Notes under the pieces: generated by a model | Seen by the model: the letters and a program-made list of their open reading frames with translations, nothing else | The model's database searches: none | What the model was told of the DNA's origin: nothing | Assembly (NCBI RefSeq): GCF_003711205.1 | Contig: NZ_CP031013.1 | Coordinates: 558,001 to 622,000, forward strand | DNA length: 64,000 bases | From: Polaromonas sp. SP1 | GTDB lineage: Bacteria > Pseudomonadota > Gammaproteobacteria > Burkholderiales > Burkholderiaceae_C | Reading direction: 5' to 3' | Shown here: positions 31,635-34,531 of the stretch, one piece after another | Layout: the number at the start of each line of letters is the position of its first letter | Numbering within the stretch: the first letter of the stretch is position 1 | Position numbers and translations under genes: made by a program

Positions 31635-32759
31635 TTACTTGGCGGCGCGACGCTTGAGCACGGCGGCAGACAGCACTTCCAGCACGTCCAGAGAATCGCC
31701 CCAGCCCAGGCAGGCGTCGGTGATGCTTTTGCCGTATTCCAGCGCTTTGGCGTCGTCCTTGCCGGGGGTGAATTTCTGCGCGCCGGGGTTGAGGTGGCTT
31801 TCCACCATCAGGCCGAACACATGGCGCGAGCCGCCCGCCACCTGGCCGGCGATGTCGCGCGCCACGTCGACCTGCTTTTCATGCTGCTTGGAGCTGTTGG
31901 CGTGGCTGCAGTCCACCATCAGCGTGGCCGGCAGTTTGGAGGCTTCGAGTTCCTTGCAGGCCGCCGCGACGCTGGCCGCGTCGTAGTTGGGCGCCTTGCC
32001 GCCGCGCAAAATCACGTGACAGTCCTTGTTGCCGTTGGTCTGCACGATGGCGACCTGGCCGTTTTTGTGCACCGACAAAAAGTGGTGGCCGCGGGCAGCC
32101 GCCTGGATGGCGTCCGTCGCAATGCGGATGTTGCCGTCGGTGCCGTTCTTGAAGCCGATGGGCGCCGACAGGCCCGAAGCCAGCTCGCGGTGCACCTGGC
32201 TTTCGGTCGTGCGCGCACCGATGGCGCCCCAGGAAATCAGGTCGCCGATGTACTGCGGCGAGATCACGTCGAGGAACTCGCTGCCGGCGGGCAGGCCCAG
32301 GCGGTTGATGTCGATCAGCAGCTGGCGCGCGATGCGCAGTCCTTCGTCGATGCGGAAGGTTTCGTCGAGGTAGGGGTCGTTGATCAGGCCCTTCCAGCCG
32401 ACGGTGGTGCGCGGCTTTTCGAAGTAGACGCGCATCACGATTTCCAGCGAGCCTTCGTACTTCTTGCGCTGCTCGACCAGCTTGCGGGCGTATTCCAGCG
32501 CGGCCATCGGGTCATGGATGGAGCAAGGCCCGACGACGACAAGCAGGCGGTCGTCCTTGCCCTGGATGATGTTGTGGATGCTTTTGCGGGTTTTGCTGAT
32601 CAGCGTCTCGACGGCGGTGCCGCGGATCGGGAAAAAGCGGATGAGATGCTCGGGAGGGGGTAGCACGGTGATGTCCTTGATGCGTTCGTCGTCGGTCTGG
32701 CTGGTCTTTTCGACGGTCGCATACCAGTTGTCGCTGGCGGAGGTGGGCTTGGCATTCAT
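31635..32759 (-). CDS. aroG: 3-deoxy-7-phosphoheptulonate synthase (DAHP synthase), class I
   Basis: First enzyme of the shikimate pathway, condensing PEP and erythrose-4-phosphate. 374 residues from ATG 32759; the frame opens ten codons earlier. Type I alpha motifs: VVGPCSIHDP, RVYFEKPRTTVGWKGL, GARTTESQVHRE, FKNGTDG and MVDCSHANS. The 127 bases before the start contain a terminator hairpin preceded by an aromatic-rich leader ORF, pointing to control by attenuation. Which aromatic amino acid inhibits the enzyme cannot be read from the sequence. It shares the shikimate pathway with aroE at 40482. Confidence 0.97.
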   Translation of the reverse strand: MNAKPTSASDNWYATVEKTSQTDDERIKDITVLPPPEHLIRFFPIRGTAVETLISKTRKSIHNIIQGKDDRLLVVVGPCSIHDPMAALEYARKLVEQRKKYEGSLEIVMRVYFEKPRTTVGWKGLINDPYLDETFRIDEGLRIARQLLIDINRLGLPAGSEFLDVISPQYIGDLISWGAIGARTTESQVHRELASGLSAPIGFKNGTDGNIRIATDAIQAAARGHHFLSVHKNGQVAIVQTNGNKDCHVILRGGKAPNYDAASVAAACKELEASKLPATLMVDCSHANSSKQHEKQVDVARDIAGQVAGGSRHVFGLMVESHLNPGAQKFTPGKDDAKALEYGKSITDACLGWGDSLDVLEVLSAAVLKRRAAK

Positions 32760-32830: not shown

Positions 32831-32861
32831 AAAAAAAAACCGCCGGAGGCCGGCGGTTTTT
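32831..32861 (-). terminator. Attenuator terminator in the aroG leader
   Basis: On the reverse strand a 12-bp perfect stem (AAAAACCGCCGG / CCGGCGGTTTTT, loop CCT) runs into nine T. It stands 71 bases before the aroG start. The 5' arm core ACCGCCGG is also complementary to CCGGCGGT within the leader ORF (32904-32911), which can form an alternative anti-terminator pairing. Confidence 0.85.
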
Positions 32862-32885
32862 GGAGAATCGGTGCGTTTTATCGGG

Positions 32886-32960
32886 TCACGCGTTGATCTC
32901 TCTACCGCCGGAAGCGCTTGAGAACCAAAAGTAACCGAAGTAAAACTTGGCCGAATTCAT
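32886..32960 (-). CDS. Leader peptide of aroG, aromatic-rich
   Basis: A 24-codon ORF, ATG 32960 to TGA 32886, whose codons 6-13 read FYFGYFWF: four Phe, two Tyr and one Trp in eight codons. Codons 16-19 (A-S-G-G) contain the segment CCGGCGGT, which can pair with the terminator 5' arm. Stalling on aromatic codons would leave that segment free to form the anti-terminator and allow aroG transcription; completed translation would cover it and favour termination. There is no Shine-Dalgarno, so translation may be leaderless. The arrangement, rather than length or homology, is the evidence. Confidence 0.75.
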   Translation of the reverse strand: MNSAKFYFGYFWFSSASGGREINA

Positions 32961-32967
32961 AAGCTGA

Positions 32968-32995
32968 AATGTAGCACAGGTCAAAAAGTGGCCAA
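32968..32995 (-). promoter_or_regulatory. Possible aroG promoter
   Basis: On the reverse strand TTGGCC (32995-32990), a 16-base spacer and TACATT (32973-32968) preceded by TGC (extended -10 type). Transcription would start at about the leader ATG. The match is moderate. Confidence 0.35.
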
Positions 32996-33007: not shown

Positions 33008-34531
33008 TCAGGCGGTTCCGCCCACCGTCAGGCCGTCGATGCGCAGAGTCGGCTGGCCGACGCCGACCGGCACGCTCTGGCCTTCCTTGCCGCAGGTGCC
33101 CACGCCGCTGTCCAGCGCCATGTCGTTGCCCATCATGGTGACGCGGGTCAGCGCGTCGGGACCATTGCCGACAATCGTCGCGCCTTTGACCGGATACAGG
33201 ATCTTGCCGTTTTCAACCCAGAAGGCTTCGCTGGCCGAAAACACGAACTTGCCCGAGGTGATGTCGACCTGGCCGCCGCCGAAGTTGGTGGCGTACAGGC
33301 CTTTTTTGATGCTGGCCACGATTTCTTCGGGCTGCTTGTCGCCGCCCAGCATGTAGGTGTTGGTCATGCGCGGCATGGGCACGTGGGCGTAGCTTTCGCG
33401 GCGGCCGTTGCCGGTGGGTTTGACCTTCATCAGGCGCGCATTGAGCGAGTCCTGGATATAGCCCTTCAAAATTCCGTCTTCGATCAGCACATTGCGCTGG
33501 CTGGCGTTGCCTTCGTCATCGACGTTGAGCGAGCCGCGGCGGTCGGCAATCGTGCCGTCGTCCAGCACCGTGACGCCCTTGGCTGCCACGCGCTGGCCGA
33601 TCTTGCCGGAAAACGCGCTGGAGCCCTTGCGGTTGAAGTCGCCTTCCAGGCCGTGGCCGATGGCTTCGTGCAGCAGGATGCCGGGCCAGCCCGAGCCCAG
33701 CACCACCGTCATTTCACCGGCCGGCGCGGGCCGCGCATCGAGGTTGGTCAGCGCGGCTTTCACCGCGTCGTTCACATATTCGGCGATCTGCGCGTCATCA
33801 AAGTAAGCCAGGCCAAATCGCCCGCCGCCGCCGCCCGAACCGACTTCGCGCCGGCCTTTTTGTTCGGCGATCACCGTCACGCTCAGGCGCACCAGCGGGC
33901 GCACATCGGCGGCCAGCGTGCCGTCGGCGCGCGCCACCATCACCACGTCGTATTCACTGGCCAGCCCCGCCATCACCTGCACGATGCGCGGGTCCTTGGC
34001 CTTGGCGAGCTTTTCAACTTTCTCCAGCAGCTTGACCTTGGCGGTGCTGTCCAGCGTGGCGATCGGGTCCAGGCCCTGGTAGAGCGAGCGGCTGCCGGCG
34101 ATGCGGCTGGCGGGCGTCTTCACGCGGGCCGATTTGCCGCCTGCGGAAATGCTGCGCACCGTGCGGGCGGCATCGAGCAGCGAGGCTTCGGAAATATCGT
34201 CGGAATAGGCAAATGCGGTTTTTTCGCCGCTCACGGCGCGCACACCCACGCCCTGGTCGATGCTGAAGGAGCCGGTCTTCACGATGCCTTCTTCCAGGCT
34301 CCAGCCTTCGCTGCGGGTGTACTGGAAGTAGAGGTCGGCATCGTCGGCGCCGTGGGAGGTGATTTCACCCAGTGCACGGCTCAAATGCGCCTGCGTGAGG
34401 CCGAAAGGCGCCAGCAGCAGCTTTTCAGCGATCTCCAGCCGCCCCGAGGTGGACGCCGCCGTCGGCTTGGCCGTCGATGAGGCCGTGGACTTGTTGGAGG
34501 CGGAGGCGGGGGTGGAGCGAAGTGAGGTCAT
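33008..34531 (-). CDS. tldD: Metalloprotease TldD
   Basis: Subunit of the TldD/TldE metalloprotease, known for maturing microcin B17 and degrading the CcdA antitoxin in E. coli. 507 residues from ATG 34531, preceded by an upstream open extension that is probably not coding. The active-site motif HEAIGHGLEGD holds the two zinc His and the catalytic Glu. Other family landmarks are GVGVRAV, MTNTYMLGG and the Gly-rich C-terminal part. The first 30 residues are Ser/Thr/Ala-rich and unusual. The partner tldE/pmbA is not in the window. Confidence 0.96.
   Translation of the reverse strand: MTSLRSTPASASNKSTASSTAKPTAASTSGRLEIAEKLLLAPFGLTQAHLSRALGEITSHGADDADLYFQYTRSEGWSLEEGIVKTGSFSIDQGVGVRAVSGEKTAFAYSDDISEASLLDAARTVRSISAGGKSARVKTPASRIAGSRSLYQGLDPIATLDSTAKVKLLEKVEKLAKAKDPRIVQVMAGLASEYDVVMVARADGTLAADVRPLVRLSVTVIAEQKGRREVGSGGGGGRFGLAYFDDAQIAEYVNDAVKAALTNLDARPAPAGEMTVVLGSGWPGILLHEAIGHGLEGDFNRKGSSAFSGKIGQRVAAKGVTVLDDGTIADRRGSLNVDDEGNASQRNVLIEDGILKGYIQDSLNARLMKVKPTGNGRRESYAHVPMPRMTNTYMLGGDKQPEEIVASIKKGLYATNFGGGQVDITSGKFVFSASEAFWVENGKILYPVKGATIVGNGPDALTRVTMMGNDMALDSGVGTCGKEGQSVPVGVGQPTLRIDGLTVGGTA

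Follow-up and report, generated by a model that had tools for sequence, protein, structure and literature searches.

How DAHP synthase, the entry point of the shikimate pathway, is controlled where a single gene for it is found is the question raised by the region upstream of aroG in Polaromonas sp. SP1. In E. coli, the activity is divided among three isoenzymes under repressor control. In the 4.5-Mb single-contig genome that contains the window (the whole stretch of DNA analysed here, 64,000 nucleotides long), no second DAHP synthase was found besides aroG: another match to PF00793 was rejected for that role, being KdsA, and no type II DAHP synthase was matched. The nearest named relatives are other Polaromonas, with an AroG 98% identical in one of them (L002) among the matches listed. 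The answer proposed here is that aroG is very probably controlled by a classical ribosome-mediated transcription attenuator carried on a leaderless mRNA, for which the parts are as follows.

31635..32759, minus strand: aroG, DAHP synthase of 374 amino acids and the putative regulated gene (TIGR00034 aroFGH, 529.5 bits against a cut-off of 173.2; PF00793)
32831..32861, minus strand: intrinsic terminator (5' arm 32850-32861, 3' arm 32835-32846, T run 32831-32839)
32850..32869, minus strand: segment 3, GAUUCUC plus ACCGCCGG, which forms the predicted antiterminator with segment 2 (-23.7 kcal/mol)
32873..32891, minus strand: inner GCGU/ACGC hairpin of the predicted antiterminator, from folding and alignment
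32886..32960, minus strand: leader ORF, stop included, 24 codons, MNSAKFYFGYFWFSSASGGREINA; ATG at 32960, TGA ending at 32886
32895..32911, minus strand: segment 2, CCGGCGGU.GAGAG.UC, the 5' half of the predicted antiterminator, inside leader codons 17-22
32920..32924, minus strand: segment 1, UUCUC, which pairs with GAGAG of segment 2 (1:2 hairpin, -10.0 kcal/mol)
32922..32945, minus strand: control codons 6-13, FYFGYFWF, with aromatic residues in 80 aligned leaders
32968..32979, minus strand: extended -10 promoter element CTGTGCTACATT, with a predicted transcription start at the leader ATG or within about 2 nt of it

Read along the minus strand, tldD (ending at 33008) is followed by a 47-bp gap with the promoter element, then by the leader ORF, the terminator (32861-32831) and aroG, whose ATG at 32759 is preceded by AAGGAAAA, resembling a Shine-Dalgarno sequence. 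The sequence-only reading had picked out this region for a 24-codon ORF with FYFGYFWF at codons 6-13 and for a 12-bp terminator stem with nine T before aroG; the ORF was confirmed on the minus strand, and the terminator by folding and conservation. Its stem, AAAAACCGCCGG / CCGGCGGTTTTT, closes a 3-nt loop, folds at -18.6 kcal/mol (z -2.8) and ends in the nine T. A rule-based promoter and terminator scan of the window reported neither feature at the leader (the sigma-70 rule requires a -35 element, and the terminator rule missed the stem), so the case for the hairpin rests instead on folding and conservation. The same reading had noticed an exact complement of the terminator 5' arm core within the ORF, and here it was right about the match (CCGGCGGT against ACCGCCGG) and slightly off about the place, which is codons 17-19 rather than 16-19. 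The 8-bp alternative pairing stands as it was noted, within a predicted antiterminator that is longer, with a second helix (GAGAG.UC/GAUUCUC) and the inner hairpin. Segment 3 can therefore pair with segment 2 to form the antiterminator, or with segment 4 through its ACCGCCGG part.

Several figures from the window itself show how unusual this arrangement is. Of the short ORFs in the window (2,150 with 12-60 codons over the two strands, each nested start taken separately), the leader ORF alone, in both of its possible starts, has at least six aromatic residues in eight; its alternative start, TTG at 32984, precedes the conserved -10 box. The whole 136-nt leader has a folding z of -3.9, and when leader nt 16-90 were shuffled 200,000 times, 189 of the shuffled sequences contained CCGGCGGT. 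Conservation is far stronger evidence than any of these.

An aromatic leader precedes aroG in 79 of the best 80 named relatives, ranked by AroG with more in existence, mostly Comamonadaceae (some titles name no Comamonadaceae genus); the expectation that the ORF and its aromatic codons would be conserved in aligned aroG upstream regions was thus borne out. The remaining relative (L075) is a contig cut off at that point and was left out of all leader counts. Together with the window this gives 80 leaders, all with Phe and Tyr and 79 with Trp. Each has 5-9 aromatic residues in positions 2-16, with a mean of 6.9 against 2.4 and 2.2 in the other frames, and synonymous codons are both in use (Phe: TTT 222, TTC 121; Tyr: TAC 86, TAT 53). 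The terminator was found in 79 of these 80 leaders.

Two of these loci merit description in their own right. In L061, left out of all structure counts, the leader is kept, the terminator is absent and the AroG match starts at residue 16, which may reflect assembly collapse or a real loss. In L075, an uncultured betaproteobacterial contig, the end of a group II intron (RF00029, at L075:70-141) adjoins aroG on its upstream side, where the leader and terminator would otherwise stand. Some group II introns insert after terminators.

Where transcription would begin is suggested by the promoter element. The pattern TRnTAnAnT stands 5-9 nt before the ATG in 79 of the 80 leaders against 0.1 expected from shuffles, a count that was not blind, since leaders had been located with a -10-like pattern (the rule asked for such a pattern, followed 2-15 nt later by a start codon, and for three or more aromatic residues). 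In an alignment of the 80 leaders anchored on T[AC]nAnT, which forces three positions, the six positions before the anchor read CTGTGC and carry 0.94-1.9 bits, outside the anchor pattern; the 30 positions upstream of CTGTGC carry at most 0.31 bits, so no conserved -35 element is seen. In 78 of 79 leaders the distance from the -10 box to the start codon is 6-8 nt, the exception (L069) being listed from an upstream TTG; in L081, whose leader was added by eye, it is 8 nt. The usual -10 spacing puts +1 about where the leader ATG begins, and from the two together we infer a start on or next to the A of the ATG. The earlier observation that the leader ORF lacks a Shine-Dalgarno sequence was correct, and it generalizes: SD-like motifs precede 0 of 80 leaders as against 58 of 61 aroG starts. 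The placement of the -10 box and the absent Shine-Dalgarno sequence indicate that the predicted leader transcript is probably leaderless, in support of what the sequence-only reading had suspected.

This predicted form of initiation may not be universal across the families that have the element. Among tabulated leaders, a TAnnnT box ending 5-9 nt before the start is present in 4 of 5 in f4, 5 of 8 in f10, 1 of 1 in f12, 6 of 7 in f13, 8 of 8 in f23, 1 of 1 in f40 and 4 of 5 in f44. Such a box is found in none of the tabulated leaders of seven other family labels (f3, f8, f11, f20, f30, f32 and f63), hence the reservation. A separate observation, made by eye, concerns three loci (L085, L086 and L107) with a TAAAAT -10-like box a few nucleotides before the presumed aroG start; there aroG itself may be leaderless, with no attenuator.

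Leaderless attenuators have a precedent in trpL of Sinorhizobium meliloti, where, in the portion of PMC7298713 consulted, the transcript begins at the leader ORF ATG; that system differs in having Trp codons, in controlling trpE(G) and in belonging to an alphaproteobacterium. In S. meliloti, rnTrpL and peTrpL also act in trans. By analogy, the terminated leaderless RNA of about 120-130 nt, or its peptide, might act elsewhere in addition to attenuating aroG. The shared layout and the strongly conserved peptide core in the window's family speak for such a second role; the sequence does not require it, and attenuation alone accounts for the conservation, leaving a trans-acting product an unlikely addition to the attenuator.

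How the leader varies bears on what is being read. The upstream half of the leader changes like coding sequence, with third-position T/C changes and aromatic codons held in one frame. Further downstream, the GGCGG core of segment 2 falls in ORF frame 0, 2 or 1 in 80, 53 and 3 of 136 loci, and is read as ..SGGRE.. in the window and as ..PLAEEG.. or ..PLADREG.. elsewhere, which argues that it is maintained as RNA and not as peptide. Judged from these substitutions, evolution is codon-like upstream of segment 2 and RNA-like within it. A nascent peptide that arrests its ribosome on a free aromatic amino acid, rather than through codon starvation, would be another way to use an aromatic leader, as TnaC does in arresting the ribosome with tryptophan, and the YFWFS core is indeed well conserved within the window's family. 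The order and length of the run vary across families, however (FFFGFF, FFFFFYYF, FYFYFFW, SYFWYYF), and what persists is its aromatic character and its rough distance to segment 2; codon reading fits this better than an arrest motif does, and we regard peptide sensing as very unlikely.

The RNA-level constraint can be followed at one variable position shared by segments 2, 3 and 4: of the 136 loci, 76 read C,G,C there, and 26, spanning nine family labels, read T,A,T. (The count left out L205 and L212, with no terminator by pattern, together with 16 loci that lack a perfect GGCGG; L128, L206 and L207 lie outside both this count and the family tabulation of start boxes and Trp.) Segments 2 and 3 form a Watson-Crick pair here in 106 of the 136, a G-U pair in 9 and no pair in 21. 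The prediction that both alternative stems would be kept with compensatory changes was accordingly upheld, through coordinated replacements of C-G by U-A that occur for the most part beyond the window's family. Between segment 2 and the stem core there is no mismatch in 81 of 101 loci and at least one in 20.

Two alignments gauge how far this coupling extends. In A1, drawn from the window's family (identical rows counted once, 77 of 79 distinct), the terminator has 92.1% of its cells paired and no both-sided change, the stem being too invariant to covary. For the extended antiterminator, paired cells make up 78.0% in register and 34.5-49.8% once it is slid, helix 2 being weakest at 61.0%; its both-sided cells number 29 at slide +1 and 28 in register, so that the both-sided measure has no discrimination in A1. 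The 1:2 pairing has 91.8% of cells paired (0 of 500 shuffles as high). The inner GCGU/ACGC hairpin has 86.9% of cells paired, with both-sided changes from G-C to A-U in six sequences and from U-A to C-G in three. Since the core varies too little inside the family, the wider set A2 (42 sequences) was used, in which 92.4% of terminator cells are paired. There, both-sided changed cells number 7 for 2:3 and 11 for 3:4, levels that none of 500 shuffles reached for either helix, the shuffles leaving relatedness among sequences in place. These changes are confined to one 2:3 pair and two 3:4 pairs; counts of both-sided pairs do not exceed the shuffles (478 of 500 as high for 2:3, 55 for 3:4), nor do pair-type counts (478 and 500 of 500). 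Covariation is narrow.

Stems conserved at the RNA level are also what a metabolite riboswitch would show, the RNA binding an aromatic compound directly with translation irrelevant. Against this stand the upstream half, varying as coding sequence, and a search of Rfam 15 at gathering scores, which matched only tRNA in the whole window and no T-box, riboswitch or leader family; such a riboswitch is scarcely plausible. That the hairpin merely terminates tldD, a same-strand gene whose end lies 47 bp before the leader ATG, with the ORF there by chance, has next to no probability, given a conserved promoter element between tldD and the leader, upstream sequence that differs among relatives (by eye) and an aromatic run that a chance ORF would not retain in 79 of the best 80 named loci.

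Attenuation also makes demands on geometry, and these were modelled by placing a ribosome at each codon and masking the RNA up to 12 nt past the A-site codon's first base, a distance that is a rule of thumb. In the window, before segment 4 is made, the antiterminator is predicted at about -23.7 kcal/mol with the ribosome at codons 2-13; at codon 14 it falls to -15.4, and with the ribosome at codon 15 or beyond it disappears. The aromatic codons of the leader end at codon 13. The same was done for 101 loci. A ribosome placed on whichever aromatic codon is the last to leave segment 2 free lets segment 3 pair upstream ahead of segment 4 synthesis in all 101, and one placed at the stop codon leads to the terminator in all 101. 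In 56 of these loci the last codon permitting the antiterminator is no more than one codon away from the final aromatic one; in 44 it is further downstream. Without a ribosome the complete leader, segment 4 included, is predicted to form the terminator in 99 of 101; at the earlier stage that lacks segment 4, the predicted fold still has the antiterminator in 45 of the 101, so blocking through 1:2 pairing is not uniform. For the full leader with a stalled ribosome, the minimum-energy fold is still the terminator in 95 of 101 loci, and antitermination would thus have to be kinetic, dependent on the order of synthesis.

The attenuator could then work as follows. RNA polymerase would start at the AUG or a couple of bases away, and ribosomes would load straight onto the 5' end. 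With Phe-, Tyr- or Trp-tRNA scarce, the ribosome would stall within codons 6-13; on codons 10-13 it would hide all or part of segment 1, and on codon 13 it would reach nt 49, leaving segment 2, which begins at nt 50, free. With segment 4 still to be transcribed, segments 2 and 3 could pair, allowing read-through into aroG. With aromatic tRNAs plentiful, the ribosome would move over segment 2 to the stop codon, the 3:4 terminator would form and transcription would stop. In an untranslated leader, 1:2 pairing may also favor the terminator.

The closest textbook systems resemble this leader in layout and differ in what they sense and control. E. coli trpL likewise joins a short leader ORF and control codons to a 2:3 antiterminator that competes with a 3:4 terminator, and its full-length fold is always the terminator, the result seen in 95 of 101 loci here, whereas E. 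coli pheL differs at codons 5-11. Used as a control for the masking model, trpL gave the antiterminator at codons 3-4 and 7-12 (its control codons are 10 and 11), reduced at 13 and gone at 14; unlike the window leader, it gave none at codons 2, 5 and 6. The trpL leader has a Shine-Dalgarno sequence, its codons address Trp only and it controls trpEDCBA rather than a DAHP synthase. E. coli pheL shares a Phe-rich leader peptide and a terminator, with Phe as sole input and pheA as the gene controlled. Its family (RF01859, Phe_leader) scores best of Rfam on the window region, at 20.8 bits against a gathering score of 55, and the window leader is therefore not a member.

The range of the element was followed with an Infernal covariance model (R1) built from 42 aroG leaders, 23 of them with the label of the window's family (20 belonging to the window or to named loci, and the three leaders L082-L084); searches with it are not independent of those leaders. 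At E <= 1e-5, R1 matches 289 of 299 genomes of the window's family and 137 of 141 genera, a genome-level figure that does not speak to aroG adjacency, match positions being listed for the best matches only. The window's own genome has one full-length match and six partial ones. In an even sample of 300 genomes across the order, 175 show a match at E <= 0.01, many of the weaker ones to the terminator part only; matches spanning only about 50-134 or 100-134 of the model were set aside as ordinary terminators. Full-length matches at E <= 1.6e-7 occur in 76 of the 300, which represent 14 of 51 sampled family labels, and every one of the 76 immediately precedes aroG (tblastn showed this for 30 of 30 loci; it holds for 41 of 41 in the set L167-L207, and for 5 others, four by tblastn and G003 by coordinates). 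Beyond that cut-off, one further full-length match stands before aroG (L212), and several stand elsewhere. At the level of the class, 9 of 274 genomes match: two, both f63 and so from a family beyond the order, have a similar leader before a DAHP synthase 61-62% identical to AroG, three are members of the window's family and four matches do not adjoin aroG. Many genomes of the order have aroG with no recognized leader; 22 leaders were accepted in 49 upstream regions, 23 with L128 (f4), which has a full-length model match, and short aromatic ORFs in L113, L118, L127 and L129 were judged to be chance.

An aromatic leader, by a rule of 4 in 9 residues, is present in 39 of the 41 loci L167-L207. 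The other two, L206 and L207 (both f44), have a full-length model match before aroG and short ORFs with few aromatic codons; these leaders have possibly decayed or been re-tuned. A different aromatic leader, ..FNAYFYWYRSS.. or ..SYYWYRTP.., is found with a terminator in L208, L211 and L213 (f28) and L210 (f51), before an ORF of about 200 codons and not before aroG.

The inputs appear to differ among families. With identical peptides counted once, Trp is present in 68 of 69 distinct peptides of the window's family, 8 of 8 in f23, 4 of 5 in f3, 3 of 5 in f32, 3 of 7 in f13, 3 of 8 in f10 and 1 of 8 in f8, and in none in f4 (5), f11 (5), f20 (4), f44 (5) and f30 (1). The tabulated leaders of f4, f11, f20 and f44 have Phe, mostly Tyr and no Trp; L128, an f4 leader outside the table, holds Trp. 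The suggestion that all three pathway end products may be sensed by one leader would, by its codons, fit the window's family and not every family with the element, and the uneven Trp codons would limit joint sensing to some families.

Related proposals exist elsewhere. A transcript survey of Corynebacterium glutamicum mentions, in the portion consulted, a putative aroF attenuator leader peptide with Phe-Tyr-Phe before a DAHP synthase gene (PMC4046766); that organism is an actinobacterium, the likeness is one of description and Phe-Tyr-Phe is all that this portion mentions. In the part of PMC8632094 consulted, the uORFC-13-1 motif before aroF of Acholeplasma is likewise a predicted uORF with Phe codon(s) and a terminator ahead of a DAHP synthase gene, and differs in its 24 representatives (Acholeplasma and environmental sequences), its ribosome binding site and a minimum of at least one Phe codon; that part also notes that attenuation-based control of E. 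coli aroF has been hypothesized. No publication naming this leader in Burkholderiales was found among the literature matches listed, and a mention in comparative attenuator studies is possible; in a survey of premature terminators, the word aroG is absent from the main text as consulted (PMC2965389). The mechanism of attenuation is textbook and leaderless attenuators are already known; what is unusual here is the combination of a leaderless start, as predicted, with mixed Phe/Tyr/Trp control codons and a wide range. In silico and by comparison, the loci have an ORF with end-product codons (except L206 and L207), a terminator before the gene and a mutually exclusive antiterminator that overlaps the ORF.

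A bolder account, in which the leaderless ORF is an ancient main control point in Burkholderiales, with one ribosome polling Phe, Tyr and Trp, families gaining and losing Trp, and the released RNA or peptide acting in trans, is one to which we give little credence as a whole. Closer to hand, joint sensing of the three amino acids, as its codons suggest, fits a genome with one DAHP synthase found: a single leader seemingly reads all three end products at the gene for that enzyme. The varied aromatic runs, with and without Trp, form a natural series for learning how one attenuator weighs several amino acids. The loci together make up a large candidate set of leaderless attenuators, a possible Rfam family and a possible target in strains built to produce aromatic compounds.
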